From assembly GCA_964035545.1 (NCBI GenBank), contig OZ037767.1, positions 1,678,680-1,742,679 on the forward strand: DNA of 64,000 nt. The letters are read 5' to 3'. Source of the stretch: Bugula neritina (taxonomy: Eukaryota; Bryozoa; Gymnolaemata; Cheilostomatida; Bugulidae). Every line of letters begins with the position of its first letter. The first letter of the stretch is position 1. The notes below the pieces were generated by a model. That model saw nothing but the letters and a program-made list of their open reading frames with translations. It was not told where the DNA came from and searched no databases. The position numbers were made by a program, and so were the translations under genes. Positions 1,719 to 53,500 of the stretch are shown here, one piece after another.

Positions 1719-4700
1719 ATGATAGGGAAGGTTGTTCTAGTGATTATACTAGTTCTTCCTCCACTTGTTTTCTCTCTTTGGATGTTGCTAAGAGCTGTGA
1801 GAGACTACAGAAGGCGAATGTGTCGCCGAGAGGTCAGTGGTAACCAGTGATCTCTCCTTTACTGTGCCTACCAACCTCTGAGCTCAGGAATAATATTCTT
1901 ATTACAAATCATATGCATGTTTTAAAACTTGGAGTTGTCATCTATTGTGTTGAAGGGGCGAATCACTGTTGGGTTTTTCCATCCGTATTGCAACGCAGGC
2001 GGTGGTGGAGAAAGAGTGTTATGGTGTGCAATCAGATCTCTTCAAACCAGGTAAGATTTCACACATCCTGTTTCTTATCTCTACATATCGTATGTACAGG
2101 GTATACTTCAAATACTTACTAGTTGACTGTATACTGCAGATACCCACAAGTTGACTGTATACTACAGATACCCACAAGTTGACTGTATACTACAGATACC
2201 CACAAGTTGACTGTATACTACAGATACCCACAAGTTGACTGTATACTGCAGATACCTACAAGTTGACTGTATACTGCAGATACCCACAAGTTGACTGTAT
2301 AGTATATACTGGAGATTGTGACGCAACTGATGAGGACATTCTAACCAGAGCCAGTGACAGACTGGGGGTTGAACCAATCAGAGAAGTAGAGTTTATATAT
2401 TTGACAAGCAGGCGTTGGGTGGAGGCGGATAGGTACCCTGTGCTAACACTTCTCGGCCAAAGTCTAGGATCTCTGGTACTAGGTAAACTCATTATTCAGT
2501 CATTTGTGCTTCTAACTCTAACACCAAACTCGTGGTTATTCTAAGAAAATGTGCATCCTATACCCCACCCTTGTCAGTGTAAGGAACTGAGGCTAGTGAA
2601 TAGAGTAAGGAGCTATTTCTCTTGCATTGGTATATGTGTTGTTCTATATTGGCTGAGATGTAACCACATGCACAGTATAATTATAGACCTCATTCTTTAT
2701 GTTATTATATTATAATTATAGAAACTTTAATTTACTTTAGATTTGCTTTACATTTTGTTACTCATTATTGCAGGGTGGGAGGCTTTGCGCAAGTTTGTTC
2801 CTGATATTTATATAGACAGTATGGGCTATGCATTCACCCTCCCTCTCTTTAGGTATTTAGGTGGATGTAAGATCTCAGCCTATGTTCACTACCCTACAAT
2901 AAGGTGATTTACTACCAGATATTCAACAGCTCTGTGGTTTCATGTTTGGAGTTGTTTCCTTTTCCCATCTTTTGTATAATTAAGAATTCTAAAACTTGCT
3001 GATTCTATCCAACATGATGTCACCGGAGAGAATACTCTAGAAAGTGTGTTCGGTTATGTTGGAAATCACTTTTTCCAAAATAAGACATCATTGCAGTCCC
3101 AAATAGCCTTACATAACACATTAACAGAGTGCAGCTGTGTCAGGAGCTTATTATTCTGATACACATATATTTATCTTAGATAAACTCAGTAAATCCTAAA
3201 CTTTGTACTGATATGAAAAGTGCTGGTGGCGTAGAACAGTTTTGAATAGGGAGATAACTCCGTAGCTACCTGGGAAAACCAGATTATGACATAGCATAAC
3301 ACTCGTCTGGGGATAAAGTTACTTTTGTTTATAGCATGTAAACTAACATCATGGGAATATATTATACATATGTATATAATATATTCATATGTATAATATA
3401 TTATACATATGTATAATATATACGTAAGTATATATTATACATATGTATAATATATACTTACGTATATATTATACATATGTATAATATATACTTACGTATA
3501 TATTATACATATGTATAATATATTATACATATGAATATATTATACATACGTATACATTATACACAAGAGTTGGTAAGTAATGCATGTAATGCTGTCTACC
3601 ACACAGTACGGACATGCTGGAGAAGGTCCGTGGCATGGAGTCCACATACAACAACAGGTCTCGTGTAGCTAGGAGCCCTTTTCTCAGTCAACTCAAACTC
3701 ATCTACTACAAAATATTCGCTCAGATCTACGGCAGAGCTGGAAGGTACGCCATCTTATGTAAATAAAACATGGCTGCCTTGTAACAATTGGAAGTTTTCT
3801 TAAAGTTTTACCTTATTTATTACACTCAACTGTCTTCCAGTTGAAAACCCTAAAATTTAGGAAAGTTTAGGATGAGTTTGATGACGTAGAGTTGCTGGTT
3901 ACAGGAGCAGTGACGTAGTGATGGTGAACTCTACTTGGACGAGGGGGCACATCGAGAAGATCTGGGGTCAGTCTAGTATCCACACAGTTTACCCGCCATG
4001 CGATGTCATAGAGTTTGCCAAACTGCCACTCGAATTCTCAAACAAACAGAAACACATTGTATCTATTGGTCAGTTTCGGCCCGAGAAAGATCACCAACTG
4101 CAGGTAACTTATTCTCAGAGTCTAAATGATAGTCTCTTTGCGTGCGGCCGGCAGTCTGTCCACGTGGTGTGATGATGCTGTAGATCCGCTCTTTCCACAA
4201 GCTGATATCGAGGCTCCACTCCACTCAGTACGCTGCCTACAAGCTGGTGCTTATTGGCGGCTGCCGCAATGCTGACGATCAGGCCAGAGTGGATGAGTTG
4301 AAGAAGTTGGCAGAGGAACTAGAAATCTCAGAATATGTGGAGTTTTGCCTCAACGTGCCTTTCTCCACTCTGAAAGAGAGGATGGCCCAGTCCACAGTTG
4401 GTATACACACCATGTGGAATGAGCACTTCGGTATTGGTGAGTAATGCTAGTGCTGCGACAGTTGTTTGTAATCTTGTTATTGGCTGAATCATGCTAGTGC
4501 TGTGCCGATCACTGTGAAATGGAGATTTTGCTATAATTATAATTGCTATATTGTTAATTTTTATTTGGTATCTGTTATCAATGGTTTGTTTATATCATTG
4601 ATAACAGAAAATAAATTCAAACAATTGATTTTCATTATTGTAATGATTTCATAACTGGCCCTGTACTATTATAGATATAGCCAGATATTTATTGTATACG

Positions 4701-5281
4701 TGTGTCAATTTACTCATAGCTAATTTGACGAACAAAGAGTAAATAACCTATCAAGGGAGATCACACAAGTTGTATGTATATTAGGTGTTGTGGAGTTGAT
4801 GGCAGGGGGCACAGTAGTTCTAGCTCACAAGTCGGGTGGACCTCTAATGGATATTGTGACCATCCAACCTGAAGATGAGAGAACGGGTTATTTGGCTAAC
4901 GACATAGGTATGTTGTGGGTTCTTTTTATGGATATTGTAAAATTGAATTCAGTTATTTCTCATAGGATACAGTCAACACCTAAAGTATCACAGTCAGTGC
5001 CTATAAGCGCAATGTTTTTATATACATTCCTTGTAATTTCACTTGCTAATAAAGTATATACATTACTCTTAGTATCTGTAACTTTCAGTAGTTATCATCT
5101 CACTGTTGCAGAGTCGTACAGTCAATGCCTGGAGGAGATTCTCATGCTACCCAACACTGAATGTGAAGCTATATGCAAGAGAGCACGGCTCTCAGCATTG
5201 AGATATGACGAGGAAATGTTCACTAAGAGCTTCCTCTCTGCATTTGCTCCACTCATTGATCTCGTGCTTCAGAGGCAGTAA
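1719..5281 (+). CDS. ALG11: ALG11, GDP-Man:Man3GlcNAc2-PP-dolichol alpha-1,2-mannosyltransferase, complete
   Basis: ALG11 adds the fourth and fifth mannoses to the dolichol-linked N-glycan precursor on the cytosolic face of the ER, using GDP-mannose. Nine exons join in phase: 1719-1832, 1956-2050, 2280-2482, 2774-2903, 3607-3744, 3905-4103, 4184-4436, 4785-4907, 5112-5281, giving 474 residues (human about 492). An N-terminal membrane anchor (about residues 3-22) is followed by a basic stretch. Family blocks seen are [17 protein letters not shown] (45-61), [48 protein letters not shown] and VLIGGCRN. The GT-B retaining motif EX7E is present as EHFGIGVVE (373-381). The start is the first ATG that gives the membrane anchor in phase with exon 2. 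Intron 2 ends in a tandem array of its own acceptor site. Family assignment is secure; exon edges are inferred from GT-AG sites and alignment to the remembered family sequence. Confidence 0.95.
2123..2290. repeat. 28-bp minisatellite made of the ALG11 exon 3 acceptor
   Basis: Six consecutive 28-bp units fill this interval exactly. Each unit carries a pyrimidine-poor tract, TACTGCAG or TACTACAG, followed by ATACCCACAAG. AG dinucleotides end at 2139, 2167, 2195, 2223, 2251 and 2279. The last is the true acceptor of exon 3, because ATACCCACAAG plus the following bases encode conserved ALG11 residues (YPQVDC). Use of any upstream copy runs into TGA within the next unit. Confidence 0.95.
3359..3562. 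repeat. Palindromic AT-rich array in ALG11 intron 4
   Basis: Repeated blocks of TATTATACATATGTATAATA alternate with ACTTACGTAT in units of about 34 bp. Each block is nearly self-complementary, so the stretch could form hairpins or a cruciform. It lies well inside the intron and touches neither splice site. Confidence 0.85.
4571..4608. repeat. 13-bp perfect inverted repeat in ALG11 intron 7
   Basis: TCTGTTATCAATG (4571-4583) is mirrored by CATTGATAACAGA (4596-4608) around a 12-base loop. No function is evident. It could be a small MITE remnant or a chance hairpin in AT-rich DNA. Confidence 0.6.
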
Positions 5282-5325
5282 ATCGTGTCTCTCCTTGCCC
5301 ACTACTGGCTTAACCCCTCCTCACT

Positions 5326-5480
5326 GGGACTAGTACTCTTAGTAGTAGTACTAATCACTGGTACTGTTAGTAGTAGTACTACTCACTGGTACTGTTAGTA
5401 GTAGTACTACTCACTGGTACTGCTAGTAATAGTACTACTCACTGGTACTGTTAGTAATAGTACTACTCACTGGTACTATT
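5326..5480. repeat. 28-bp minisatellite in the ALG11 3' region
   Basis: About five copies of a 28-bp unit containing TAGTACTACTCACTGG and GTACTGTTAGTAGTAG begin some 45 bases after the ALG11 stop codon. They lie in the presumed 3' untranslated region. Confidence 0.85.
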
Positions 5481-6129: not shown

Positions 6130-6135
6130 AATAAA
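6130..6135 (+). promoter_or_regulatory. Candidate poly(A) signal for ALG11
   Basis: AATAAA on the + strand about 850 bases after the ALG11 stop. A second AATAAA lies at 6495-6500. Either could serve; the hexamer is common by chance in DNA this AT-rich. Confidence 0.3.
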
Positions 6136-7861: not shown

Positions 7862-8000
7862 GGCTATAACTAGTAGCACAGGCTATAACTAATAGCACAG
7901 GCTATAACTAGTAGCACAGGCTATAACTAGTAGCACAGGCTATAACTAGTAGCACAGGCTATAACTAGTAGCACAGGCTATTACTAGTAGCACAGGCTAT
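7862..8000. repeat. 19-bp minisatellite, about seven copies
   Basis: Tandem GGCTATAACTAGTAGCACA units with few substitutions, intergenic. Confidence 0.9.
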
Positions 8001-14338: not shown

Positions 14339-14371
<33 letters not shown>

Positions 14372-16817
14372 GCACCTTTGACAAAGCAGTCTCATTTACA
14401 AATTCAGAGCTGGTTATAGCACCAGGAGGGGCGACTTCCGGTTGTTTGCTGCCGAAGGTCAGCCCATCTGATGAAATCCGGCATGCTGCCACTAAAGTGC
14501 TGCCACAACTAGCTGTCTCCATAAAGTCATTGATTTTATGTCAGCTACAGTGTGCAGGATTCAGCCGCTGTCTTTGTCCAGCAATTAACTGTTTTTATTT
14601 GAAATTGATTTCTTTAATATTATATAGCCTACTTTTGAGTTAGTGTAGGGCAGCAGTATCACACACTGGCAGCAATGGCAGCTTGATTGCTGCCGTATTT
14701 CTATCTCCTAGATTGCTATCGGTTGTTTTTGTGCAACAAAAGTTTGCAAACAAAGTTGGAGTAAAAAATGTATATGTTTTGCTGCTTTAAAAACACCCCT
14801 TTGTGTTCAATAATCATACATTTGTTTTCATTACGCCGGCTTCATTCAACTGTTTCAGCAAAACAAATAAAATTGTATGTATTGAACTCATGCAAACACA
14901 GTTACAAATTCAAGTTAAAATAAAGGTTCAAATTTCATTAGAATATTTAATTAGAATATTATTATAACTTTGAATTTCTCCAATTTATCATTTCTATAGT
15001 TCTATAGCGTTCATGAAGCTATGCACCATTTAGTGGCCTGATATACAAATATGTATAGAAAATTCATGGGCTTTTTAGAGTTGAAAATTACAGTTATTGG
15101 TAGCCGTACTTATTTCCTGGGCAGCTCAACATAGCAATCAATGTTGTGTACGCATGGTTGAAAAGCAATTAGCAAAATTGTTAGCAACTGGGCTTTAAAT
15201 GCTCATACTGTAAAAGGTAGCAAATTATATAGGAAATTTCTAGAACCTATCCTTAATATTTAAACCTTAGAGCTAGCTTAAATCTCAAACTAATCAAAAT
15301 GTGTTTATTTGAAGTTGGTCTACTATCTTCCAATCTTAATAGAGGATAGAAAAGGCCCAAGTGTTGAGGCCACAGACGTGTTACATAACTGACAATTGTA
15401 TTAAGAAAGTTAAGATAATTATATAAGAAAATAAAGAGTCAGAAGCTCCCATCTCCATGGCTACAGCATCGGCTATTTATAAAGCTGTCAGGTTAATTAT
15501 AGATTATGCCTTTCATGAAACAGTCTAGTTAATCTTATGGGACCTCAACTACAAATAAAATCAAAGCTGACTTGTTAAAACCAGCCACAACTACTCATGT
15601 CTAGTTTACAAGTGGAAGCTTTTCTTTAATGGTTAATTGCGCGTGATAGATCTTATCGAGTCCAAATTATCCATAAAGTAATTATAGCTATTTGATTGCC
15701 ATGTGGAGCTAAAACTATCTGTAATTTTTGAGGGTGTATGCATGTACACCCCCTCTCTATGTTCTGGTAAGAAAGAGAGATTATCCTAATCTCCTGATTA
15801 TTCATGTTCTCTTGCGTCATGACTGTTTAGTGGGTGTAGGTTTATATTATTAGAAAAATATAAATAAATTTATGATTTACTAACAGCTTTTGAAATCAAC
15901 TTCTACTAATGAATTATATCTAAATTTGGGATCTCAAAAAAATGACAATTTTTTCCATGTTTCAAATTGCATTTTAAGATGCTTTCGTTTAGATAGATTA
16001 TAGTTTAGATCTTTCCTAATATAATTCAGTATATTTACAGTTGAGAGAGATGATGCAAGACCTGCAAGTCGGATTTTCCGCCGCTATGAACGAACTTTCC
16101 AACATTCAAGACGAGGATAAAATACTTCACGAGAAAATGAACAGCTCTAGAAGAGAGCACGACACCCAGATGAGTGACATTGTTGACCTTGTGCAATCTC
16201 TCAAGGTAAACGGTCTCCCTCATCATAACTATACATACAACTGTAATGGTCATAAAGTCTTGAAACTTTAAATACAGCCATTAACTTTTACAGCTGTACA
16301 GATGAACATGTTTTTATACTAACCTATTTACCTGACTCAAAAATAATAACGATTAAAGCATTACTAAAAATAAAAATTATCTGATATGATAAAAACGTAC
16401 GATTTCAAAGGCAAAGTTTTACCCTACCCTTCTCTTTCTGTGACATGGATGGACTTACTGTTGTTCTTAAACTTCGATGCTCAGTGGTAGCCTGTATTCC
16501 TAACATCAATGAACTTGGGGGGGGGGGTACTGCCATATCTCAAAACTTTGCCTGTACAACTTATAGTGGCCAAAGAAACAGCTCCAAGTTCAGTTGTCTT
16601 TCCTACAAGATGCTTCTAGTACCAGCATTTTACTAATGGCATGAATAAACTAGTTTAGAAAACAATATGTTTTAAGGGTGCTAGTAACTACCCCCCTCCA
16701 TATTATGCTAAAATAAGGTTTCTTTAATAGTTTGAATTCTCATGACCTAAACTTTAAAGCAACGTAAAGCTGGGATGCTCTGCTCTCCACTAATCCAGCA
16801 GTTAATATCTTGTAACT

Positions 16818-16902
<85 letters not shown>

Positions 16903-22900: not shown

Positions 22901-25318
22901 AGGATATGAGCCTTTACATTAGACACTGCTATGATGTAAAATAAATTGTTATATGTTATAGAATAATTTTTATTATATGTATAATGAGTTGTAATATATA
23001 ATAAAAAGAATTTTAGTGTATAATAGAATAAATTTTAATAAATAATATATGGAGTGTAATATATAATGTAATGTGATTGCAGGATATAATATAATAAATT
23101 ATTCTGTATTTTTTTTGCTTTGTTGTTTACAATTTTAGAAATTACTAAAATATACGGATGCTGACCACCCGGACAAGTTCTTTTTGGAGTCCAGTCTGGG
23201 CTACTTTCGCTCCAGTTTGCTGACAATGAATGACTCAATGGAGAGGTCTCTGCAGCTGGCTGTGACAGATTCTAGCTGCTCGAAGAGGTCAGTGTTTGCA
23301 TGATGTCACTATAATACAGTATCATGATGTCACTATAATACAGTATCATGATGTCACTATAATACAGTATCATGATGTCACTATAACACAGTATCATGAT
23401 GTCACTATAACACAGTATCATGATGTCACTATAACACAGTATCATGATGTCACTATAACAATATATCATTATGTTACTATAACTACACAGCAGATCATTG
23501 GAAACATGCAGTTGGAGCAGTCACGAAGAAGAACAGAGACTGTCTACTGCAACCAAAGACAGTGGAATTCACTCAAATTGTGACTTGGGTTCAACTGAGG
23601 AATTGTCCTCCCTCTCAGCTAATCCTTTTGGTCAAATGATGGTTGAAGAGAGAAATAGTAAAAGTAGAGGTAACTAATTCAATATTCAAACTAACATGCA
23701 ATCATACTCACAGTATATCTGAAGTCAATGATGGCATAGATCTATTAGAATATTATGTAACAGTTGTTTACCAATTAGTTCAGTGAACTATTATGATGCG
23801 AGGCAGCAATAATGCTATTTAAAAGTTAGGTTTAACACCAATGTTTGCTAAATTTTCAATTGCAAATCTAACATTTGGTATTGTACCCATTCAACAAGCC
23901 TTTATAGATTACAATTCTTGTAAACTAAAATGCGGGCTGTCTCTACTGCACCCTCTCATTACTCACTAAGTTCTCTAGGCCTTGGGCTCTTTTCAAATAA
24001 TTTCAGACATTATTTTTCATTATAATTCTAGTTACTTCTTCTTGTTTAGGAGTTATCATCGAATTCTCTAACACTTTATTTTCCAACCAGTTTCAGTCAT
24101 GTTGTAAGAGTTGTCATTACATTATTTGGCAGTGTCATCAACGCGACGTCCTCAAAGTGTCATAGACTTTATTAGTCCGGAGAAAGAATTGACTCTATCA
24201 GTTCCAATGAGAAGCAAGACTCCAGTCCCGTCATCGTCCAGTAAAAGCAGCAGAAGTTTATTTGTCAAACGTATGTGTCACCTAACATGTTGTATTGCAA
24301 AGCTTTAGTACTGCTCATAATACTTTAGTAGGACTTCATTTCATCTCCTAAACTCTTGTACGTCTGCCTAGTTTGTGTCTAACTGATTCCACGTCTGCTG
24401 TTAGCATGTTTTCAATATATCCATTTTCATTAAAACCTTTTTGTATGCCTTTCCATTGTACAAATAAGGATAACATTTTATTGTCATTCCTTTAAATGTA
24501 TCATTTTAGATTCCTCTACTCCGTTAAAACCGTCCTTGTCTCAATCTACCCCGAACTTGCTGGATGACAACAACTTTGCTGATGGCACGATGTCATTGAA
24601 ACGGCAGCAAAGAAGGAAACACAAAGTTCAGTTCAAAAATCCTCCAATCGAAGAGCAGGAAAACAGTCAGCCTTTATCTGGCAGCGATATGAAGAAGTTG
24701 AAGAAAAGGTCCCTAGCTGATACTTTGAAGATTATCTTCAACAGGCGAAAGTAGGTGGCCCAATATTGCTATCAAGTGGCCCAGTACTGTTCTTAAGTGG
24801 TTCAGTACTGTTATTAAGTGGCCCAGTACTGTTATCAAGTGGCCCAGTACTATTATGAAGTGGTCCAGTACTGCAGACAAATTGCCCTCTCTGTTAGCAT
24901 GGCCAGTACTTTTCAGATGTGAATACTAAATTATATATATTCTATTTTGAATATAAACCAAACCTTACATCGCCAAATGCTAGTAAGTTTTTGACACAAT
25001 ATTTATTCTTGATTGTTGAGTTAAAATGTGGGTCTCTCAATAATTACTAGTTTCCTGTTTTAAACGGACATCTAACTGACGGATGATGAATATTTATTAA
25101 CACATTGTAGGGGAGCTCAGTCTAAAAACAGTCACACTGACATGTCAGACAGCTGCTGTGATTTAACCTCATCATTTGAGGAGGGTTCCCATGTCGTCTC
25201 TTCATATTTATCTGAGAACACAGACTATAACTCAAAACTGAAAAAAGGAGAAACAACTCCATATAGAAATGAGAATACTTACGAAGATGAGAATGGAGAC
25301 CCTTACAGCGTTGTGTAG
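13550..25318 (+). CDS. RhoGEF: coiled coil plus DH domain, no PH domain (ARHGEF33-like), complete
   Basis: DH domains exchange GDP for GTP on Rho-family GTPases. Thirteen exons join in phase: 13550-13693, 16041-16205, 17038-17278, 17463-17644, 19007-19097, 19259-19388, 20741-20879, 22222-22425, 23139-23287, 23494-23669, 24133-24270, 24510-24750, 25111-25318, giving 735 residues. Residues about 49-145 are heptad-rich. The DH domain spans about 277-480: MESEKNYCTTLYNILEGY (first conserved helix), RLFPPSLSSIYEYH, DIFSQYREYIGNFP and LLTPVRRISSIVLQIKKLL (the normally most conserved helix). No PH domain follows; the tail is Ser-rich and ends in SVV, a class I PDZ-ligand pattern. An in-frame TGA at 13535 precedes the start. 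A coiled coil with a DH domain and no PH domain is the architecture I recall for vertebrate ARHGEF33; this orthology is a suggestion. The DH call itself is firm. Confidence 0.88.
14341..14372. repeat. (TCTG)8 microsatellite in RhoGEF intron 1
   Basis: Eight uninterrupted TCTG units. The large intron 1 (13694-16040) otherwise shows nothing recognisable. Confidence 0.97.
16827..16899. repeat. (AT)n microsatellite in RhoGEF intron 2
   Basis: About 36 uninterrupted AT dinucleotides, self-complementary throughout. Confidence 0.97.
17390..17432. repeat. 17-bp perfect inverted repeat upstream of RhoGEF exon 4
   Basis: TTATCACGTAATAAAAA (17390-17406) pairs perfectly with TTTTTATTACGTGATAA (17416-17432) around a 9-base loop. 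It ends 30 bases before the exon 4 acceptor, so a hairpin in the pre-mRNA would cover the probable branch-point region. The arms also contain ATTACGTGAT, close to PAR-bZIP-type sites. Confidence 0.75.
20915..21030. repeat. Degenerate GTGACATT repeat in RhoGEF intron 7
   Basis: Imperfect repeats of GTGACATTGT and GATACTGTGACATTGTG begin about 35 bases downstream of the exon 7 donor. Confidence 0.75.
23299..23490. repeat. 24-bp minisatellite ending at the RhoGEF exon 10 acceptor
   Basis: Eight units of 24 bp (192 bases) run from just after the exon 9 donor to the AG that ends at 23490. Units read CATGATGTCACTATAA followed by TACAG or CACAG and TAT. The last unit is diverged and ends in TACACAG, directly before the CAG/exon 10 junction. 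AG sites in the upstream units would lead to TAA within the next unit. Confidence 0.92.
24752..24870. repeat. About 21-bp repeat just inside RhoGEF intron 12
   Basis: Five to six imperfect copies of AAGTGGCCCAGTACTGTTAT start immediately after the exon 12 donor (AAA before GTAGGTGGCCC). The beginning of each unit resembles the donor itself. Confidence 0.85.
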
Positions 25319-26147: not shown

Positions 26148-29100
26148 ATGGATGTACCGGCCGGCTATTCAGCAAACACAGCTACTCCTGGAGGTAGGAA
26201 CAAAATGAAAATGAAAATCAGATTCAGTGACAAAACTTAAACTCAAATCCAAGACTGAAGCGTATTGCTCTATTGTTATGATTATGATTAAATGATGAAC
26301 CTAGTGACACCACCAGGTTTTATTCAGATTTAGTAGTGGTTATTTGATTTGATTGATATCTAATGCTAAAACTAAAAGTAAATTAAAGTAGTATTACATT
26401 TAAATTTAATACTATTAATGTATAATACTTAAAGTTAATAGAATCACTATTACTGTTAGTATTATTATAATTTAAATTATTACTATTACTACTATACTAG
26501 TGGCAGTGCTAGTAGTAGTACAATAGTACTTAGTAGTAGTGCTAGTACTAGACCTAGTACTAGTAGTACTAGTAGCAGTAGTAAATCATTATTATAAATA
26601 TATTAATCGTAATTACGGTAATTTAAATTATAATCATAATAATTAACTTTAAGTTTAAGAGATAATCATAAATGATAAATGAAGTTGAAAGTAATATTTT
26701 AATTCTATAATAATATTGTATTTAAAATTTGCTGTTCAAATATATTCTTATATATTATTAATATTGTATTAATACTCAATAGACAATAATGAGTAAGCAG
26801 CTAATGCTAATACTAATATAGATAGTAATTGTTGTGGTAATACTAGTATGACTATGAGTATCAAGGGAAACTCGATCATGAATTATATTAATGATTATAT
26901 AATATGCTAATCATATTAATTAGTTGATGATAAATTCAATAAAATTAGTCAGGTGCAATGTGGATGTTGAGTAAATATTGATTTGATAGCAGCTAAAAAT
27001 TACTTTAATTTTAGCTCTGTTAAGCTGAAGTGAAACTATAGGCTCGCAATTGAGCATTGTTTTATTTAATTTTGTCCACTTTACCTAACTTTCATTAAGT
27101 TCTTTTGAGGTTTGCAATTATTGCTTCTAGCTGTGTATTTGAGCTGTTGGGCGCATTTTCTTGTAGGCTCTGCACCCACACCATCTCGAGGGCCAAAGAA
27201 GTTGGGTAAAAGAGCTGCCCACCCAGCAAACCCACAAATGTTTACCGACATTCCCCAGTCTCAGCCCGTACCCTCCCAGCAAGGTATACTAGGCGTGCCA
27301 AAGTTCTAAACCCTTGATCCTTCCTATGCCATCGGCACAAGCTGTTCTTTATCAGTTGTCTGAGCCATGAGCACCCTTTGTTGGTGTTCATGCCACTCTC
27401 TGGTTGTTTTAGGAGGTTATTATAATCCAGCCCAACAAGCACCCCCTGGTGGCTACTATGGCACTCCCCAGCCGGCAGCACCGATGCCACAGTTTCCGGG
27501 ACAGCAATACATGGCTGACCCAATGGCGAACATGGCCATGCAGTACGGCGGCACTCTAGCAGACCAGGGCAAGGAGTACATGCAGCAAAATGTTAGTAGA
27601 GCTCGGTTTTATCTCTGTCACATGTAACTGATATTTTTTTGTAGTTTTCTGAAAGCCTCAATGGGGAGTTTATTCCACATGAAAGGACAAATCTGTTATA
27701 GTTGTAGCAAGCAGCGTAGAATTCAATGTTTTAGTACAGGCTTATCTGCATTAATTGTATTTATGATATGAACTTTTGAAACAATATTGTAATTTAGAAT
27801 ATGTGAATGTGGAATGCCAAGTATGCATTGTATTATGATGGACAGGTTAGTACTAATTGTGTAGCCGTTTGTTTCTTTTACTAGTGTTACTGTGTTGTAT
27901 ATGACTGAAATGATGCTACCACTTCTGTATTTCCTGTTGCAGCTGGAAAAGTATGTCTCCGCCTCCAAGGTGAAATATTACTTTGCTGTTGACACTTCCT
28001 ACGTGGGGAGAAAACTCGGCCTTCTAGTCTTTCCTTTCACACATTCTGTAAGTCACTCTCTGGACAGATATTATATTTGAGTGAAAAGTTTTTCTATAAA
28101 TGTTAAGATTCTTAATACTCTAATCAATAACCTGTCAATACTCTAATTGATTGAAATTTTCAACTGACCATCCAAAGTAATTGAAATGTTCAAACATTTA
28201 CATTATACTATGTCTGGTGCCGTTATGGTTATCATACCAGTCTAGTTTAGCATAGCTTAGAGTAGAAGTGTTTTATTTTATAGAACTGGTCTGTAGCCTT
28301 CAATCAGGACGAGCCTGTAGCTCCAAGATATGATGTCAATGCTCCTGACTTGTACATACCCAGTATGTTGAGTATATATTTATATCACTTACTTACTCCT
28401 TTGGTGTAGTAATTTCAAATACTATAATCGTTTAATAAATACTGTAATATTTTTGTGATCTACACACATGGAGTTATTCTCACCATGCTGTGTACCCTTA
28501 TAATATTGTAATGTCTTGTAGTGATGGGACTAATTACTTTCGTGTTGGCATCAGCCGTGGCACTCGGTCTTCATGGAAGGTATGTATGCCTTTATACCAC
28601 TTGTAATATCACTTGTCTACCTGTAATATTACCTGTCTACCTGTAATATCACTTGTCTATCTGTAGTATTACCTGTCTACCTGTAATATCACTTGCTTAC
28701 CTGTAGTATTACCTGTCTACCTGTAGTATTACCTGTCTACCTGTAATATCACCTGTCTACCTGTAATATCATATGTATGTTGAAGGTTCACCCCTGAAAC
28801 CATCGGCATGGTAACCAGCTCTGCTCTGGGGTACTTACTTCTAGAGATATTAGTCATACTGTTTGTCATGTACATACTGGCTGTACAGACTTCTCTCACC
28901 TACCTCGACTGGTGTGCTTACTGCGGGTACAAATATTTCGGGTAAGTATAGTGTAGAACCTACCTCTCACTGTATTATATAAATCTGTAAGTATGGTGTA
29001 TAATTATACTAAATTTGATATATAATGTCTGAATCTACATAAAACCCTTTACTTGTTTAGAGCTTCACGTGGTTTTAGAAATTAGCTGGAATGAAGATTT

Positions 29101-30655: not shown

Positions 30656-33600
30656 CTACTTCATTACTTGGAAATCATCTGCCTATTGCACCTACCTCTA
30701 TATACTTACACTCTGCAATCTACATAATACATGTTACATTTACCTCTATAATATACTTGCACTCTACTTGTATACCGTATGATCTACTACACCCTACTCC
30801 TACATGTATGTTGCACTTACCTCTGCACACAGGTCTACTATTAAGTTAAGAGTTGTCTGTTGCTGCTGGTACACGTACATGTTGTACTCGATGGCTGGCA
30901 AGATTTGAAAGAATCGTTTCAAGGTTGTTTTCTCCCTGCAAACGAGGACAACACAAGTAATACAATAACACTGAACACAACACTGAATACAATGATGGCT
31001 GGTCAGACCAACAAGTAGAAAGGCAATTTGGTTGGCTTAAATCGTATTAACAAAAAAAACTTACAGTTATGCAAACAATGGTGATTTAAAAAAGTAGAAA
31101 TTGAGTAAAATATCCCTTATAAAACATTCTTAAATAATGGCCAGGATGAAAAGGTTACCACCTTGCGGCCACTTTCACTGGCTATCGGCAAAGACTTACC
31201 ACTCATTGGCTGTTGGATATGCCTCTTCAATTGGCATCTTTTTCTTGGAGTTGTCCCCTTCAAACAGACTGTCATCATCCCCTGAGTTTACTACTGCAAT
31301 GAACAGATAGGCTAAATTATACTCGAAATGGGAAAGATCTCGTGTCTTAATCAAAAGATCAACTTCTCTCCTATTTAAAAGTCATCTGCTTTAGAAATAA
31401 TAGATGTCATTCTGAATCACAATTTATTTTGCAAGCTTGCCTACCAGTTGCAATTTTTAAACTAGTGTGAATTGTGAGTTCCAACTAGTAAAATATTTCA
31501 AGTTAGTATGATGGAAACAACTTAAGTAGCAGTGTTTTTGATGAGGGAAAACATACATATGCTATAAAGCCACAGCCTGGACAGAAAACCAACGGCAAAA
31601 GTATGCAGTTGCGAGGACTCATTTTAAATAGAAGTCTTATACTTTCACAATTTTTTGTTGGTTCGCTTTTGCTCTAAGCAATGAGCTAAAGTACAATTCG
31701 ACCAGTTGAGCTGGTAACTACTAGAGATGGTAGGGTTGCTATTGTGACATCACAACGATTCTATCAACTTACAGTCATATAATGTATCGTCTTCCTCTAT
31801 TTTCACTGTCTTATCTTTAGGATCTCCATAAGCTGCGTACAGAGTCAGTTGGAAGTTGTCTACTAACACCGCCACAAACAGGCTGCATGGGAAAGGAAGT
31901 CACAATATCTTACAACTCTAATCAATAACTGCACTCAAAACAATGCATGTTTTTTTCTAATAATTCATAAATATTTTAAAAATTCAAAAACAATGGAAGT
32001 GGAAATTTAACAAATTTTTTATATAAATTTTAAAGCATGATATAACAAAGATGCATGCTGAAGCAATGATAATATAACTCCTAATTAATTGAAGTATAAC
32101 TGTCAAAATGGGACTTACTTTAAGAATATGAGATACTCTATGACAATGTAGGCTATGAGGTAGATGATGATGTGGCTGGAATCTACAAACAGTAGCAGTG
32201 ACTTACAGTGACAGTAACTTACAGTGACAGTTACTTACAGTGACAGTTACTTACAGTAGCAGTGACTTACAGTAGCAGCTACTTACAGTTACAGTGATTG
32301 ATACAAAATTCAACGAGTTTGCAAAAAAAAATCGTTTTAAGCAAGATTGCATCACAAGTTGAACATAATTTCACTATCTAGGTCAGCACACAGTGAGAAA
32401 GCATACAAGGGTCAGCGGACACGACGTCCTCGTATATGAAGAACCAGTCATCTAGAGTGAGTAGCTGGAAGAGTGTGAAGAGGGCAATCCACAAGGAGCC
32501 AAACCTAGTCGGGTCAGCGTGGGCGTACATACCCCGACCAATCACAGCAAACATATCTGATTATATTGTCAGGAAATATGCCGCACACAGGTTCATAGTT
32601 GAAGTATGATGAACATATCAGATTAGTGGCTGAATTTGTTTCTTATATTTAGAAGATACAAAATTTCAGGCCTTTGGCTAACTTTCTAAATACCTCTAAG
32701 AATATAAGACTGTACATAGCACACATGTACACAATGCATACATGAATATAGCACACATGAATATAGCATACATGAATATAGCACACATGAATATAGCATA
32801 CATGAATATAGCACACATGAATATAGTACACATGAATATAGCACACATGAATATAGCATACATGAATATAGCACACATGAATATAGTACACATAAATATA
32901 GCACACATGAATATAGCACACATGAATATAGTACACATGAATATAGCACACATGGATATAGTACACATAGAATATAGCACACATGAATATAGTACACATG
33001 AATGTAGCACACATGAATATAGTAGCCTACACATGAATATAGTAGCCTACACATGAATATAGCACACATGAATGTAGCACACATGAATATAGTACACATG
33101 AATATATATAGCACACATGAATATAGTACACATGAATATAGCACACATGAATGTAGCACACATGAATATAGTACACATGAATATATATAGCACACATGAA
33201 TATAGTACACATGAATATAGCACACATGAATATAGCACACATGAATATAGCACACATGAATGTAGCACACATGAATATAGCACACATGAATATAGTACAC
33301 ATGAATATAGCACACATGAATATAGCATACATGAATATAGCACACATGAATATAGTACACATAAATATAGCACACATGAATATAGCACACATGAATATAG
33401 TACACATGAATATAGCACACATGGATATAGTACACATAGAATATAGCACACATGAATATAGTACACATGAATGTAGCACACATGAATATAGTAGCCTACA
33501 CATGAATATAGCACACATGAATATAGCACACATGAATGTAGCACACATGAATATAGTACACATGAATATATATAGCACACATGAATATAGTACACATGAA

Positions 33601-36600: not shown

Positions 36601-39600
36601 TACACATGAATATAGCACACATGAATATAGTACACATAGAATATAGCACACATGAATATAGTACACATGAATGTAGCACACATGAATATAGTAGCCTACA
36701 CATGAATATAGCACACATGAATATAGCACACATGAATGTAGCACACATGAATATAGTACACATGAATATATATAGCACACATGAATATAGTACACATGAA
36801 TATAGTACACATGAATATAGCACACATGAATATAGCACACATAGAATATAGCACACATGAATGTAGCACACATGAATGTAGCACACATGAATATAGTACA
36901 CATGAATATATATAGCACACATGAATATAGTACACATGAATATAGCACACATGAATGTAGCACACATGAATATAGCACACATGAATGTAGCACACATGAA
37001 TATAGTACACATGAATATATATAGCACACATGAACACAATGCATACATGAATATAGCACACATGAATATAGCATACATGAATATAGCACACATGAATATA
37101 GTACACATAAATATAGCACACATGAATATAGCACACATGAATATAGTACACATGAATATAGCACACATAAATATAGCACACATGAATATAGTACACATGA
37201 ATATAGTACACATAGAATATAGCACACATGAATATAGTACACATGAATATAGCACACATGAATATAGTACACATAGAATATAGCACACATGAATATAGTA
37301 CACATGAATGTAGCACACATGAATATAGTAGCCTACACATGAATATAGCACACATGAATATAGCACACATGAATGTAGCACACATGAATATAGTACACAT
37401 GAATATATATAGCACACATGAATATAGTACACATGAATATAGTACACATGAATATAGCACACATGAATATAGCACACATGAATATAGCACACATGAATGT
37501 AGCACACATGAATATAGTACACATGAATATATATAGCACACATGAATATAGCACACATGAATATAGCACACATGAATATAGCACACATGAATGTAGCACA
37601 CATGAATATAGTACACATGAATATATATAGCACACATGAATATAGTACACATGAATATAGCACACATGAATGTAGCACACATGAATATAGCACACATGAA
37701 TGTAGCACACATGAATATAGTACACATGAATATATATAGCACACATGAACACAATGCATACATGAATATAGCACACATGAATATAGCATACATGAATATA
37801 GCACACATGAATATAGTACACATAAATATAGCACACATGAATATAGCACACATGAATATAGTACACATGAATATAGCACACATAAATATAGCACACATGA
37901 ATATAGTACACATGAATATAGTACACATAGAATATAGCACACATGAATATAGTACACATGAATATAGCACACATGAATATAGTACACATAGAATATAGCA
38001 CACATGAATATAGTACACATGAATGTAGCACACATGAATATAGTAGCCTACACATGAATATAGCACACATGAATATAGCACACATGAATGTAGCACACAT
38101 GAATATAGTACACATGAATATATATAGCACACATGAATATAGTACACATGAATATAGTACACATGAATATAGCACACATGAATATAGCACACATAGAATA
38201 TAGCACACATGAATGTAGCACACATGAATATAGCACACATGAATATAGTACACATGAATATAGTACACATGAATATAGTACACATGAATATTGTACACAT
38301 GAATATAGCACACATGAATATAGTACACATAGAATATAGCACACATGAATATAGTACACATGAATGTAGCACACATGAATATAGTAGCCTACACATGAAT
38401 ATAGCACACATGAATGTAGCACACATGAATATAGTACACATGAATATATATAGCACACATGAATATAGCACACATGAATATAGTACACATGAATATAGCA
38501 TACATGAATGTAGCACACATGAATATAGCACACATGAATATAGTACACATGAATATAGTACACATGAATATAGTACACATGAATATTGTACACATAGAAT
38601 ATATATAGCACACATGAATATAGTACACATGATTATATTATGTCAATAAATGAAAAAGATATTGCAAAGGATACACATGAAGAGCAACATCAGTCCTACA
38701 ATGGCACCCATGGAATGCACCGACTGTATACAGGTGTTCATTATTACCTGCAAGTTTGTCATGAACCTGCAAGAGAAAATCAACTTCACTATTACACGAG
38801 AAAGGCAACTCCAAAATACAAGGTTCACGATTATTATTGATTGATTATTGAGAAAGCTGTGTGAGATAGTTAGGTGAAAGTCGTCCAACAGATGGCGCAT
38901 CACAATATTCAACTATACAATATAGTGTACTATATAATATACTATATAATATACTATACAATATACTATACAATATACTATATAATATACTATACAATAT
39001 ACTATATAATATACTATACAATATACTATACAATATACTATATAATATACTATACAATATACTATACAAATTACAATATACTATACAATATAATATACTA
39101 CACAATATACTATATAATATACTATACAATATACTATATATAATATTCAAATTACAATATACTATACAATATACTATGTAATATACTATACAAATTACAA
39201 TATACTATACAATATACTATATAATATACTACACAATATACTATACAATATACTATATAATAGAGAAAAATGCCAAGGATTACAAAGTGTATAAATATAT
39301 TGCATTCACTGAACAAATTTATACTCTAGTTACAAAATTAATTTTTCTGCTGCTCCCGCTTCTACACTGCAGTATTCAGCTCTTATAAAATACCATAATT
39401 AATGAATTTAGGAAAAGATAATGGAGTACAATATAGACTGTGAGCCAAGCACCACGCTCCCCCTACCTGATAGCTCTAAGCACCCTCAAAGCGCGGATAG
39501 CCTTGAATATTTTGAACATACGCAGGATGTCAAAGGCTACCAATTTGCCAGAAGCAAGCGTTGAGAAAAGAAGAGGCAGAATGTAATCCAAGATGTTGAC

Positions 39601-45435: not shown

Positions 45436-48400
45436 ATGCCTAGCATGAGGTTATTCCCACATGTGGTGTTATCCTTTCGTCCAATTATGTCTCAATCGCG
45501 TCTCAAGATTTTACAGAGCCACTTGTGTTGCACAGCCCCAGCTCTGCGAGTATCTCCAGCCTCAAGATTTTCTAGCAGCAAAGCATTAAAACAAAACTCC
45601 TCCAACAGTGTGACAGAAACGATATCGATTGTGAATTCTATAGTCAATACTGGTGACATCAGACCCGCTGAAAACAATGCATCTTTCATCATGAGAAATT
45701 ACAGCAGCTTTTCAGACGAGGATAAAGCTGCCTTCTTGACCCAGTTAGCTTCAGACTATCACTGTCAGCAAAGCAGCTTGTTGCGCAGTTTGTCATCTCT
45801 GAGTTTGGGAGAGTCTACGGCAGTAGGTTATAGGCAGCAGCAGAAACTGAGAGAAAACTTGACCCCCGCGTATGAACTGCTGTTTAGAGAGATTGGCGCT
45901 TCTGCCGGAGGAGTTAAGTTTCTGGTTGACCTTAGACACGACCTCATCAAGTTGTCCCGTGGCGCTGCCAATAGTGAGAAGTTGGCATCTCTTCAAGCAA
46001 TGAATCATAACTTGAAAGAGGTGAAGGGTCAAACGTTTATTTTTATTTTATATTTAGGCTCACTATTTTTAATGAAAATGGGGCACATCAATACAAATAA
46101 TGAACTATTTGAAAATAAAATCGTTGTAGTTTAAATATTAAATACTTGCAGAAAAGTTTTTATTCAGCTAGAAAAGTCAAGCACTACCATATGACATAGT
46201 CTGCACATGGATATAACCACTTGCTCTGGCATGTCATTTATTTATAGCTATTATCATTGTGGTTTGGAGTTGGCTTCCTATCACTAGAAAGAATTACGTG
46301 GAAATCACCCTGTGATCTGCTAGAGAAGGTGGCTGGGTATGAGGGGGTCCACCCTGTACGCAATGTTTCAGACCTAAGACTAAGAGTTGGGGCTTACAGG
46401 AGATGCTACGCTTTCATACATCCGAGGTGAGGTTAGCCATCATCTAACAGCTGAAGTATGGATCCAGTATCTTGTATCGAAGTCAAAAACTGATGCGTTG
46501 AATATTTAATTACTGTGCAATGTATTTTTATATTAATTCAATAAAACTAGAAGTACCATGAAACCTTCCTGTCTCTCCCACAAGAGAGTGTCATTGAATA
46601 TGTTGCGAGTTGAATTGGCATCATCTTAGGGTTCAGTTAAGATTATTAATTTGTTTTGCTAATTTAAAAAAGTCACAGGTCAAGTTACTGTCTAAAGCTA
46701 TTAGATTTTATCTTCCTCTAGCAAGATGATGACTCAGTGAATGTAAAGTGAGTTTACTCTGCTTCCATTAAGATATCTTATTCTACGCACCAACACGTAT
46801 ATCTTTGGATTTATCTTCTCTATTTGATTATTTACTCATTTTTGTTTACTAATTGCTATTGGCTCTTTAAAATTACTACATAGCAACAACTTTTACATTT
46901 TTTGCTTAGAAATTTTGCCAATTGCTTTTCATGTTGTGAAATTTTGCCAATTGACAAATATGTCACAGAATGTTTCCGATTGTCGGCCATGTTGTAGCAT
47001 GCCCCGGGAGCCGGTTGTCATACTGCACGTCGCACTGACAGATGGGATAGCCAGCAATATACAAGCCATCGTGCCTCACCCCACTCTGTCTAATCAGTCT
47101 GATTTCAAACTGACTCAACACTCTGAAGAAGAAGCTTCTACATTCAACAGCGCCGTGTTCTATTCCATCACCTCTACACAGCCCGGACTGAAAGGTACAC
47201 AAACATTCAGTGCTCTGTGACAGCTTCATCATATTTTAGAGTTGTAGTTTAAGTTGATTTTTTGTTTTATAAAATCTCCAACACCTTATAATTGAAATAG
47301 ACAGCATTAATCTCAGTTTAAAATTTAAGTCATCCATTATAAAACTATTATATCATTGTACGATAAAGTCCAATTTGCAGGTATCTCAGTGGATAACTTA
47401 GTTTCTATCTGTAATATACTTGATGTATCTTTATATTTGAGAGTGATAGTTTGGGTACATCCTGATAGCATAGTCGGTATTAGGCATGTAAACTTCCAGA
47501 ATTCCTATCAAAAAATCTAGAATATAATGAAATACTAGTCAATAATGTTTTCTCTCCCATATTTCACCATACAGGGATAGATCTTGGCAACTACCTTATC
47601 AAGTCTGTTGTAAAACAACTGCAGTCTGAGTTCCCGCATCTCACGCAGTTTTCTAGTCTCTCGCCGATACCGGGCTTCCGCGATTGGCTCTTCACTGAGA
47701 TTAATCAGCAGATGGGTGGAGCTAAGCAAGAGCCACTGTTGAGTGATAATCAGATGCAAAGACTATCAACTGTACTTCAGTGTCAGGTATGAGTCATACT
47801 TCAGTGTCAGGTATGAGTCATACTCTAGTGTCAGGTATGAGTCATACTATAGTGTCAGGTATGAGTCATACTCTAGTGTCAGGTATGAGTCATACTCTAG
47901 TGTCAGGTATGAGTCATACTATAGTGTCAGGTGTGAGTCATACTCTAATGTCAGGTGTGAGTCATACTATAGTGTCAGGTATGAGTCATACTCTAGTGTC
48001 AGGTATGAGTCATACTCTAGTGTCAGGTATGAATCATACTTTAGTGTCAGGTATGAGTCATACTCTAGTGTCAGGTGTAAGTCATACAATTTGGAGTTGT
48101 CTTTTCAGTTATTCATAACCCTTTGGAATGTCTTGCATTACATTTACTATTTAAGCTACTTACTTGATAGTATTGTAGCATTATATCTCTAATTTACCTC
48201 ATAGTGTTATATTATTTGTAATGTTATATTTCTTTATTGTACTGCGTTATTGTTAAACATCTTGTGTTACACTTATAATACACTTATTTCTTATATGAGT
48301 AGTATATTGTACTATTTTAGGCTGAAAAGAAAATTATTTTGTCTAAATTCAAAAAGTTGCTGCAAGACGGGACCTGGTGTAAGAACACTGATGTTACCTC

Positions 48401-49096
48401 CGGTATCAAAGATATACTAATGTACCTGTGTGCCAGGTAGTTATCCTCCCCTGTGTATTTCTACTTACTCCATCATAATACTTACTTGCATGTCTGTTAG
48501 ATGCCGTACTTACTTTTGCATATTTATTTACAGTCATCTTGAAAAAGCTTGACTTTGTTCCGGGCCATCTCTACTTGCAATTTATTTGAAATAATGGAAT
48601 AAACATTCATTTAGTGCATCGAATCATCTCAATGAATATTTTTATTAGTTGCAGTCTATAATATTTATTATGAATAACCACAATCTGCTGCAGATATCTA
48701 TACTCATAATCTGCTGCAGATATCTATACTCAATATCTGCTGCAGATATCTATACTCATAATCTGCTGCAGATATCTATACTTATAATCTGCTGCAGATA
48801 TCTATACTCATAATCTGCTGCAGATATCTATACTCATAATCTGCTGCAGATATCTATACTTGGAGAAGCACCGAAACTATGCCCTAAATCCTGTAGCGAA
48901 TTTCCACCTGAGGAATGGGGCTACCCTGTGGCGTATCAACTGGCTGGCTAACTCCACGGCTAAAGGTTTGAGTGAGAGTTGTGGTCTCATGGTGAATTAC
49001 CGATACTACCTCGATAAGACGCTGACCAATAGTCAGCAGTACAACGCCGAGCACATCATTGACGTCAGCCCACAGGTCACCGACCTACTAAACTGA
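45436..49096 (+). CDS. MLYCD: Malonyl-CoA decarboxylase, complete
   Basis: MLYCD converts malonyl-CoA to acetyl-CoA and CO2, relieving inhibition of fatty-acid import and clearing malonyl-CoA in mitochondria. Six exons join in phase: 45436-46020, 46248-46426, 46998-47194, 47575-47786, 48321-48436, 48850-49096, giving 511 residues (human 493). The first 50 residues are rich in R, S and hydrophobics with no acidic residue, ending SRFSSSK, and look like a mitochondrial presequence. The helical domain (FSDEDKAAFLTQLASDY, GGVKFLVDLRHDL) is followed by the catalytic GNAT-like domain: EPVVILHVALTDGIASNIQ, FSSLSPIPGF (catalytic Ser region, about 346-355) and LNPVANFHLRNGATLWRINW with the catalytic His at 449. 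The human C-terminal SKL peroxisome signal is missing; this protein ends TDLLN. An in-frame TGA lies upstream of the start. Introns 4 and 5 carry arrays built on their own splice sites. Confidence 0.96.
47787..48085. repeat. 24-bp minisatellite made of the MLYCD exon 4 donor
   Basis: The exon 4 end and its donor (AGTGTCAG before GTATGAGTCATACT) are followed by 12 further copies at exact 24-bp spacing, so 13 candidate donors end at 47786, 47810 and so on to 48074. Most copies keep GTATGAG or GTGTGAG, both good donor sequences. Only the first gives an open frame, because the first unit reads GTA TGA in the exon frame. Confidence 0.95.
48682..48860. repeat. 26-bp minisatellite made of the MLYCD exon 6 acceptor
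   Basis: Seven copies of CTGCTGCAG followed by ATATCTATACT, with AG ends at 48693, 48719, 48745, 48771, 48797, 48823 and 48849, exactly 26 bp apart. The last is the true acceptor. The exonic part encodes the conserved RYLY before EKHR, so the exon is the source and the intron copies are derived. Upstream acceptors would read into TCA TAA or TTA TAA. Confidence 0.95.
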
Positions 49097-50547: not shown

Positions 50548-53500
50548 TCATAACATGTCAAGGTTGGTGATTTTATCTTTTCTTTGATTATTTGCACCAT
50601 TTCCTGTCTCACTTTCTAAAGATTCCACAGTGGTTGTAACCGTCGCCCCACTTGATCCTAACATGTTATTCGTTGAACCTGGTGAATCAGATTTTGATTT
50701 CGCTGGACTGATGCCTATGTTCAGAGCGGGTAGACGTGCTTGAGGTGAAACTTTACTTCCCTTGGTTAACTTCGACATTTTCTTTTGTTTATTTGCAGTA
50801 CTAGAGTTTGAGTCTGGGCTAGTTGAACGACTATTGCCATCGTTAGATACGTCTGATTCGATGCGTAACGTCGTAGACAATGTTGAGGGGTTTGGAGAGC
50901 CGCTAGAGCTCTGTACACTGATTGAGGCTATTATGGTGTCAATTCGATGATCGACTAAGTCCAATTTGCTAGTCAAACTACAGACATCTCTTTTTATATC
51001 TTGTTTAATGTCAAGTAAGGATTGCAATATGGCCGCCTGTTCCGCATACTTGGCGTCGTTCGTCTCAGCAGCAAACGCTGTGCTCTGCATTCCACTGACC
51101 TCTACATTCATGTCAGGTGCAGCCCGAGATGACCTCAGTTGTTGGAGTTGTATCCCGGCAACCCCGTTGCTTGTTGGCTCAGCTGTCCCATTAGTTAAAA
51201 ACTTTGACCATTTACTTCCATTCTGGGTAACTGCTGGCTTAGTCACTTTAATGGTGGGCGTTTCTAAATCATGCTTTTGTGATTCTAAAATATCAATTCT
51301 CTTTGTAATTACAGGTCATATATGTCAGTTATACTAAGAAAAATACATTAGTTTAATTAAAATTACTAGTAGCACATGCTTTTTAGAATGAAATTCTACA
51401 CAATATTGACATTGTATACTACGCTCACCATTTCCATCTGCGTGCGACTTCTTGAACTTTTGAAATAATTTCCTCACTGGATGGTCGCTGGACAGAGACA
51501 ACGCAGGTTGATTCTCGTGGAGCTTCTCCAATTCCGCTTCTCTCTTGACATCAGCTACTTTTCGGAATAGCATCTATGACAGTCACATGTCTTATTGTCA
51601 CACATATAGTCACATATGTCATATTGTCACACATATAGTAAAATATGCATATATACTCGTACATACAACTTTCACACACACACAACATGCTTTATATTAC
51701 ACGCATTACAATTCAGTAAAACTATAGTATACTAAAATAACTCAGTAAAAGTTTGTTATTTTATTTCAAACTTCAGTTTAAAAGCCTACCCTGGTTCGCA
51801 TGTTGTACGTAAGCTGTAAATTCCGTTTGAAGGAGCTTGCAAAAGCTTGATAGAAATCTAAAATTTCAGACAGCTTGTCTGTCCGTATGCTGTGTATGTC
51901 ACAATACGTCAGTGTTTTTACATTGGCAGCGGACTGTCCAACCACGTGATGCTCCCAGAATAACTCTCCAAACACGTCTCCTTTACCTGCGTACAAAAGA
52001 ACTTATCAACCTGCAAACTCTTCAGAATTTTGATACTTATAGTGGCATTTCACACTACCTTTAGTTATTAAACAATAAATTATATATTTTTAAAAAAAAA
52101 TATTGTAAGTACAATTAACAACTGTTCATAACTTAGTGATATCAGCTTCCACCCTTTCACACAAAAAATAGTTAAATAGATTACTGAAAACGCAACATGG
52201 AAAATCTTTGAATTGGGTATGAATTGGGTATGAATTGGGTATGAATTGGGTATGAATTGGGTATGAATGATCAATTGGTTGTTACACTGAATAAAATCTT
52301 GTATGATCTTACTGAGTATTGCCACCACCTCCTCATCTTGCACAACTTCTAGTGAACCAGACACAACAAAACAGAGTGTGTCCAGACTCTCCCCCTGGTG
52401 GTACAGCAAATCTCCGGGGGCACTGAAATTGCACAAAGTGTTGATAAGTAAAGCTGTGAGAATGGAGATGATTCCCTACCTATTTTAAATATTGCACTTC
52501 AATGAAACGTACAACAAAATCAGAAATTAATGAAATCCTACATGTTGAAGAAAATACATTAGGGAATCATGGGTAAATAACATTCATTATAAGAGATAAA
52601 TAATCGTAGTAATATTCTAAATAAAATGTGCTACAGCATAATTATTGTGCTATAACAAGCTATACTATAGGATAATATAATTTTGTATAGTATAATTCTT
52701 TAAAATATGATATAATACAATTTAGTATATTTGGATATAGTATAGTATAATATAATATAATATAAGGTAGGACATTATAATAGTTTCAGAAATAGAATAG
52801 TTGCTATATCTAATAAACTTGTTCAAGTGATTTTGTTTAAATATATCAACTAATTAATGGAGCAAACCCCAGCACCTAACTACAGTGTGAAAGTCCCACA
52901 GCTTTCAAGTTATAAATGTTTAAAATATTACTGCATTTTCTGTTTTGATTTCGTAACCTGAGCAGGTTACTTAAAGCAAATATTATGACCGTAATGCAAG
53001 TTTCTATTAACTCACCATTATACACCTGTGTGTTTACCCTTTATTGGGGTATATAAGTTGACAGGCCCTAGGGCAATGCTAACAGATTCAATAGCCATTT
53101 AGAGATGTGTGTTTTCCCAGGAGTATTTTACATATTCATAATGAATATAGAATATAATCTACACTACTAGTAATAGTTGCATGTCCCTCTCTCTGTTCCC
53201 TCCCAGCTCAGCTCCCATAGCATACATAATGCATATGTTAATAAAAGACAGAGTTCTCTGTAATAGACTACGACTGAGTACTCAGTACTATAAGTGAGTA
53301 TGCAGTACAATGAGTGAGTACACAGTACTATGAGTGAGTACTCACTCATAGTACTGAGTACTATATAAGTGAGTGTAACGCTATATGTATAACATTACCT
53401 ATATATTATTACCTGTATAATATTATTACCTGTATAACATTATTACCTGTATAACATTATTACCTGTATAATATGATTACCTGTGTAATATATTGAAATG

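Follow-up and report, generated by a model that had tools for sequence, protein, structure and literature searches.

Mirage-like minisatellites at splice donors in the genome of the bryozoan Bugula neritina

In a 64-kb stretch of the Bugula neritina genome (bases 1,678,680 to 1,742,679 of contig C3; hereafter, the window), tandem arrays of short repeats lie on or beside splice junctions in the genes ALG11, RhoGEF, MLYCD, and EAG. The initial annotation of the window, which described five such arrays, judged that chance could not plausibly have put them there. This raises the question of whether minisatellites occupy splice junctions more often than tandem duplication at random would place them and, if so, which junctions and by what process. 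We examined the window together with 260 kb from elsewhere in the genome (324 kb in all), and words were counted over the whole assembly (215.8 Mb, 295 contigs). The arrays are probably minisatellites of the kind called "mirage" in amphioxus, arising at splice donors several times more often than random tandem duplication would give.

All five arrays were recovered with Tandem Repeats Finder (TRF) at the periods first reported (Table 1). The gene names are supported by matches to Pfam ALG11_N (PF15924), RhoGEF (PF00621), and MCD (PF05292) and, for EAG, by the KCNH1/EAG sequence in the PDB; the closest MLYCD protein among the matches listed is that of the bryozoan Watersipora subatra (59% identity). 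Four arrays include exon sequence, amounting to 22 nt in ALG11, 11 nt at MLYCD intron 5, 8 nt at MLYCD intron 4, and 11 nt in EAG. If the exon-proximal copy is used, the ALG11_N profile runs unbroken over the junction (protein positions 41 to 180, profile positions 2 to 142), and human MLYCD and the KCNH1 chain align without gaps over the MLYCD intron 5 and EAG junctions, respectively. At MLYCD intron 4, the alignment is gapped and conservation poor, and the junction was placed by reading frame. From this protein continuity and the gene models, by which junctions are predicted throughout, we infer that the outer copy is the one that is spliced. The claim that every array lies on a junction fails for RhoGEF, where 11 nt separate the donor from the start of the array and 7 to 10 nt separate its end from the acceptor, depending on the AG chosen; this AG is reached via a final unit that has diverged and carries two additional bases (by eye). 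Inner copies were also said to bring stop codons into frame, and stops do follow from read-through of both donors, from use of the final three inner copies in ALG11 and in MLYCD intron 5, and from use of six RhoGEF copies, that is, in all of the copies tested in the five arrays. Such stops tell little, because the sequence is AT-rich and would usually give them.

The placement of arrays was evaluated in the window and in four blocks picked by coordinate with their sequence unseen: A on C1 and B on C5 (100 kb each) and C on C2 and D on C4 (30 kb each). Genes were modeled with a purpose-built finder, in a stricter version that replaced a discarded, too-permissive one, and its coding and splice-site models were trained on the very DNA analyzed. 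The models yield 259 introns, including 2 delimited manually. Within these introns, 67 minisatellites have a TRF score of ≥80 and a period of ≥9; arrays outside predicted introns were left out of the 67. Excluded before counting were a coding repeat (block A, 92472 to 92567) and the array that abuts the boundary of block C (1 to 185). In the window, the exclusions were the intron beside a false minus-strand exon of the finder (48884 to 49084, really MLYCD exon 6) and the intron at 5278 that leads to a doubtful last exon, together with its array (5329 to 5477). Under the null model, the founding unit is placed uniformly over the intron, with arrays collapsed to a single unit; overlap with the exon is allowed, and units entirely within exons are treated as purged.

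In the window, four arrays span a junction, compared to 3.5 expected (P = 0.49). This outcome is unsurprising because the introns are short, and the cases first reported therefore do not by themselves exclude chance, contrary to the initial annotation. When all arrays that come within 25 nt of a junction are counted together with the spanning ones, the window has more than expected (12 versus 6.9; P = 0.004). In the outside blocks, a junction is spanned by 10 of the 45 intronic arrays, compared to 3.5 expected (P = 0.0015), and so an excess of spanning arrays, not found in the window, is found beyond it. All 10 are at donors, where 1.76 are expected (P < 5e-5; 9 of 43 versus 1.71 when one array is kept per paralogue pair), whereas none of the 45 spans an acceptor (1.8 expected). 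A symmetric seeding of duplications at AG/GT junctions, as originally envisaged, does not agree with this result.

Over all 67 arrays, 12 span a donor, compared to 3.5 expected; with an identical cutoff on both sides, the counts are 12 versus 3.7 for the whole set and 10 versus 1.8 outside the window. The excess is limited to spanning arrays and to intron positions 1 to 15 (7 versus 2.2), with no donor-side excess deeper than about 15 nt among the 67 arrays; a general pull of arrays toward intron ends was rejected on this ground. At acceptors, 2 of the 67 arrays span the junction (3.7 expected) and 5 lie 1 to 15 nt from it (2.2 expected; P = 0.07), all 5 in the window. Blocks C and D, which were fetched only after the donor/acceptor split had been noticed in block A, contain 3 donor cases among 14 arrays, compared to 0.37 expected.

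Word counts, which are independent of the gene models, also single out donor-like repeats. The word AGGTAAGT in three tandem copies, with 8 to 38 nt between copies, gives 1,703 matches (803 + 900) in the whole assembly, versus 9 (3 + 6) for the reversed word, totals that are not array counts because matches overlap within arrays. A one-base change, AGGAAAGT, gives 7 matches and its reverse 25, and yet the single words are similarly abundant (10,267 for AGGTAAGT, 6,689 for its reverse, 7,832 for AGGAAAGT, and 7,168 for its reverse). Taken with the placement counts outside the window, these totals bear out the annotation's proposal of a recurrent process that multiplies splice sites and lengthens existing introns. 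By hand count, the matches listed include at least 22 separate AGGTAAGT places, all on C1 and 8 of them within its first 2.2 Mb, compared to 4 AGGAAAGT places in the whole assembly. Among these 22 places, the units look unrelated save for the word itself (by eye, with no alignment). The acceptor word TTTTGCAG gives 11 matches and 0 reversed, 4 in one C5 array and 7 at alike places on the small contig C219, a total that lacks a single-word baseline and does not cover the CTGCAG of the window's two acceptor arrays.

The assembly also contains contigs that look ciliate; the 22 listed places lie on the animal chromosome C1. Small contigs (about C11 to C295) hold most of 130 kinase matches, in frames rich in in-frame TAA/TAG and poor in TGA. 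Some ciliates read TAA/TAG as glutamine, and contigs of an associated ciliate therefore seem to be present.

Upstream flanks were taken for 14 of the 22 C1 places, chosen before any flank was seen. In 9 of these 14 arrays, the top-scoring exon model has its end at the first copies (scores of 15.8 to 35.0, donor score included), by a cutoff, a total score of 15, that was fixed after the scores were seen; restriction to the two best exons per locus gives 8 instead of 9. A Pfam scan of eight exon peptides (seven from array-start exons and one from an upstream exon) supports three of the array-start exons, one as a caspase and two as OATP. Splice signals recur within the 14 spanning arrays of the placement set. 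A good donor, defined as one scoring no lower than the first quartile of real donors, is present in at least half of the units of 8 arrays on the sense strand and 2 on the antisense strand, and an acceptor signal is present in at least half of the units of 5 and 0 arrays, respectively.

The source and age of the copies can be followed in block A, where an MCT/SLC16-like exon pattern is common to six predicted genes (g1 to g6) and to a portion of one more (g7). A scanned piece of these genes matches Pfam MFS_1, and we take them to be MCT-like. Arrays of differing units, 19 and 22 bp, lie at a homologous donor in g1 (exon 5) and g4 (exon 1) and have thus arisen more than once, while g2 and g3 have the same exon end with no counted array (matched by eye). 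Since these array-free paralogues share the intron, the array postdates it at that site. The array of g5 and g6 opens with AATGTACAAGAAG|GTGTGT, and its inner units read TAGTAGAAG|GTGTGT. At the far end, the sequence is GTACAAAAAG|GT in g5 and GTACAAGAAG|GT in g6, with one base changed in one gene; the exon-end sequence is thus kept at the far end in this pair, the sole pair measured, and the exon end has therefore been copied into the intron. The two arrays have nearly equal units but differ in copy number (2.9 versus 12.8). The intron that carries them, KK|DIFYSG, is present in g5 and g6 only and absent from g1 to g4 and g7. It might be a recent gain in this young pair; its best local matches to the flanking exon ends do not fall at the acceptor. 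With regard to intron gain, arrays in these paralogues were added to existing introns, with one young-pair intron as a possible exception.

Under the mirage reading, a short stretch straddling an exon-intron junction (about 17 to 45 bp, sometimes longer) would be duplicated in tandem, and the duplicates would then expand inside the intron. The outermost copy, its exon half still coding, would remain the working splice site, and the inner copies would be intronic. The donor excess would then stem from a mutational bias at donors, perhaps connected with transcription or splicing, and not from selection.

Several results weigh against this reading, beginning with the window, whose spanning arrays match the chance expectation. 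Block A supplies 7 of the 10 outside cases and block B none (spanning arrays number 7/23 in A, 0/8 in B, 2/13 in C, and 1/1 in D); block A, from a region close to one end of chromosome 1 with a high density of AGGTAAGT arrays, dominates the outside cases, and the sample amounts to 324 kb in a genome of about 200 Mb. It was also in block A that the donor/acceptor split was first noticed, ahead of any test of it. One counted array, C 11366, begins exactly on the donor and contains no exon. With ≥3 TRF copies required, 8 of 36 arrays span a junction, compared to 4.5 expected (P = 0.046), and donors number 6 versus 2.25 (P = 0.016); with periods of ≤40, the counts are 12 of 65 versus 6.4 (P = 0.015) and, for donors, 10 versus 3.2. 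Among the AGGTAAGT arrays, 5 of 14 have no exon end at their start (scores of 2.9 to 8.7), and the coding score alone exceeds the 90th percentile of same-locus control positions in just 7 of 14; L032 and L039, which are among the nine, fall below that percentile, and L039 nevertheless matches Pfam OATP. Between the sense and antisense strands, the highest donor scores of spanning arrays show no significant difference (P = 0.12). Finally, 41 of the 67 intronic arrays are separated from every junction by more than 25 nt. Among these, donor motifs number 2 in sense and 6 in antisense, with about 1.5 expected for each; the sense strand has no excess and the antisense strand a slight one, a pattern not expected from a cause tied to splicing.

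A splice-derived origin for all minisatellites was rejected on account of the far arrays. Given their lack of a sense excess, most minisatellites would come from a general process, with donors over-represented among the birth places. Two candidate drivers were rejected as well. Donor strength does not distinguish 12 array donors from 240 others (P = 0.79), and hairpin-driven slippage is not indicated, as the fold z-scores of the units show no difference from those of single-copy intron windows (67 arrays versus 64 controls; P = 0.26).

How a mutational bias would come about can be proposed only tentatively. Germline donors may be duplication hot spots because they act as splice sites, with breaks at the donor repaired by short duplications such that introns grow from their 5′ ends; transcription or the assembly of spliceosomes there, through polymerase pausing, R-loops, or U1 binding, could be the source of the breaks. 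We regard this as possible, with the balance tilted against it. Selection appears unlikely to account for the excess. It would retain random donor duplications because extra donors, as U1 sites, aid exon definition or suppress premature polyadenylation, and it could explain why the excess outside the window is confined to donors in sense orientation at exon ends and why long arrays are formed by consensus donors. Array donors, however, are neither stronger nor weaker than others, and the inner copies give stops.

Chance combined with geometry is improbable as a general explanation. Random duplications, purged where exonic, would leave some arrays on the junctions of short introns, an account that suffices for the window and fits the majority of intronic arrays, which are remote from junctions and show no sense donor excess. 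It does not anticipate 10 spanning arrays outside the window, all at donors and with a sharp peak there, nor the gulf between AGGTAAGT and a one-base change of similar abundance. It is also doubtful that the word AGGTAAGT itself, rather than splicing, is the hot spot, whether as a nuclease or transposase target or as a slippage-prone word. The AGGTAAGT arrays without a recognized exon end and the slight antisense excess far from junctions would follow from such a property, but most of the sampled arrays start at predicted exon ends, spanning arrays also occur on other donor words (e.g., CCTGTATGT, TCAGTAAGT, and GGGGTAATA), and the units show no hairpin excess. Least credible is that the arrays are what is left of introns born when an AGGT proto-splice site was duplicated in tandem, a model put forward for amphioxus globins in the account of PMC3087553 and favored by the young-pair intron with its exon-end copies, since the other array-bearing MCT-like junctions have array-free paralogues with the same intron and the best exon-end and exon-start matches of the young-pair intron are not at its acceptor.

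The mirage reading can be compared with three known systems. Introner elements are dispersed copies of one family bearing splice sites; like them, the Bugula arrays are many splice-site-bearing repeats in one genome, but unlike them, each listed array has its own unit (22 C1 places, by eye) and no single family is seen. In amphioxus, repeats over the exon-intron boundaries of Adh3 were named "mirage" (Canestro 2002, via PMC3087553); such repeats were later observed in globin genes, and other amphioxus loci are cited (PMC3087553). Undisturbed regular splicing by reverse transcription-PCR, length instability between haplotypes or cells, and escape of the boundary copies from homogenization are among the traits of amphioxus mirages. 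As summarized there, mirages affect 5′ or 3′ boundaries, carry splice signals in many units (10 to 72 bp in Adh3), and were described from few genes, with reverse transcription-PCR and length polymorphism and with a proposed link to intron evolution (PMC3087553). The Bugula arrays likewise span exon-intron boundaries with splice signals in many units. The junction is covered in 14 of the 67 intronic arrays of the 324 kb, one of which merely touches it, and both junction types are affected (12 donors and 2 acceptors, both acceptors in the window). Array-bearing introns are not new as a rule, given that array-free MCT-like paralogues have the same introns (by eye), bar KK|DIFYSG. Unlike the amphioxus mirages, the Bugula arrays occur in Bryozoa, are donor-biased, and were tallied across an entire assembly and compared with null models; they are known from genomic sequence, whereas the amphioxus cases come with reverse transcription-PCR and length polymorphism. 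In Drosophila, cases of intron gain via tandem duplication of AG/GT proto-splice sites are described in PMC2891723. Both processes involve tandem duplication across AG|GT, but the Drosophila introns of that account are new within an exon, whereas the Bugula copies were mostly added to introns shared with array-free paralogues.

The kind of array is thus already known, and what is new is the phylum, the genome-wide count, and the donor bias. We found no genome-wide count or donor bias of junction-spanning minisatellites in the open-access literature that we searched. In their accessible text, the genome-wide tandem repeat papers PMC3152781 and PMC11686069 do not use the word "splice", the Flustra genome paper does not use "tandem repeat", "minisatellite", or "intron", and the Watersipora genome note does not use "intron" or "tandem".

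Several further arrays of the window, beyond the five first described, lie near junctions without being counted among those five: one more in RhoGEF, one in YIF1, one in an ion channel gene that we take to be CatSper-like, and three in EAG (Table 1). The window also contains a 5.9-kb satellite (32716 to 38637; 15-bp unit, about 380 copies, AT skew near 0.3), followed by a 12-bp satellite at 38928 to 39262. Recursive splice sites combine acceptor-like and donor-like sequence, and at L006 (6107 to 6439; block A, 16107 to 16439), the unit TCTTCTAGTAG|GTAAGT fuses sequences of these two kinds. Splicing to an inner copy would therefore restore a donor there and might be harmless. Block B is poor in minisatellites (8 per 100 kb). 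A long gene model with many exons is repeated there in tandem, its exon lengths nearly the same from copy to copy (L015 to L024, about 20 to 64 kb).

Table 1. Arrays at or near predicted splice junctions in the window and in block A
Feature	Unit and copies	Coordinates	Strand	Position and support
ALG11 intron 2 acceptor array	28 bp x 7.2	2101..2301	+	TRF; exon 3 start 2280 in last copy
RhoGEF array	24 bp x 7.7	23299..23483	+	TRF; fills intron 23288-23490, acceptor 3 nt later in final model
RhoGEF array	21 bp	24755..24873	+	TRF; begins 4 nt past donor AAA|GTAGGT
YIF1 intron-filling array	20 bp	28602..28771	+	TRF; begins 22 nt past donor, ends 14 nt short of acceptor; YIF1 by Pfam
Ion channel gene array	16 bp	32189..32297	-	Ends 6 nt before acceptor; Ion_trans by Pfam
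MLYCD intron 4 donor array	24 bp x 12.9	47779..48087	+	TRF; intron start 47787; unit with TGTCAG|GTATGAG
MLYCD intron 5 acceptor array	26 bp x 6.9	48682..48860	+	TRF; exon 6 start 48850 in last copy
EAG array	29 bp x 2.3	51587..51652	-	13 nt before acceptor
EAG/KCNH intron donor array	17 bp x 5.2	53403..53491	-	TRF; exon 53481-53623
EAG array	26 bp x 5	55755..55884	-	TRF; begins 15 nt past donor
EAG array	13 bp x 6.3	56671..56752	-	14 nt before acceptor
KK|DIFYSG introns, L010 and L011 (block A)	2.9 and 12.8 copies	52742-53696, 63751-64914	reverse	Donor array

Gains of intron length and of splice sites have mostly been inferred from old, decayed cases. The Bugula genome carries many donor copies at or near their source exons, numerous enough for testing the choice of the outer copy in splicing, differences in copy number between haplotypes, and the attraction of duplications to donors; an alternate haplotype of B. 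neritina is listed in PMC11480708 (GCA_964035465.1). If the donor bias is mutational, DNA duplication would be tied to where introns begin, and if donors attract duplications because they act as splice sites, RNA splicing would leave a mark in DNA.

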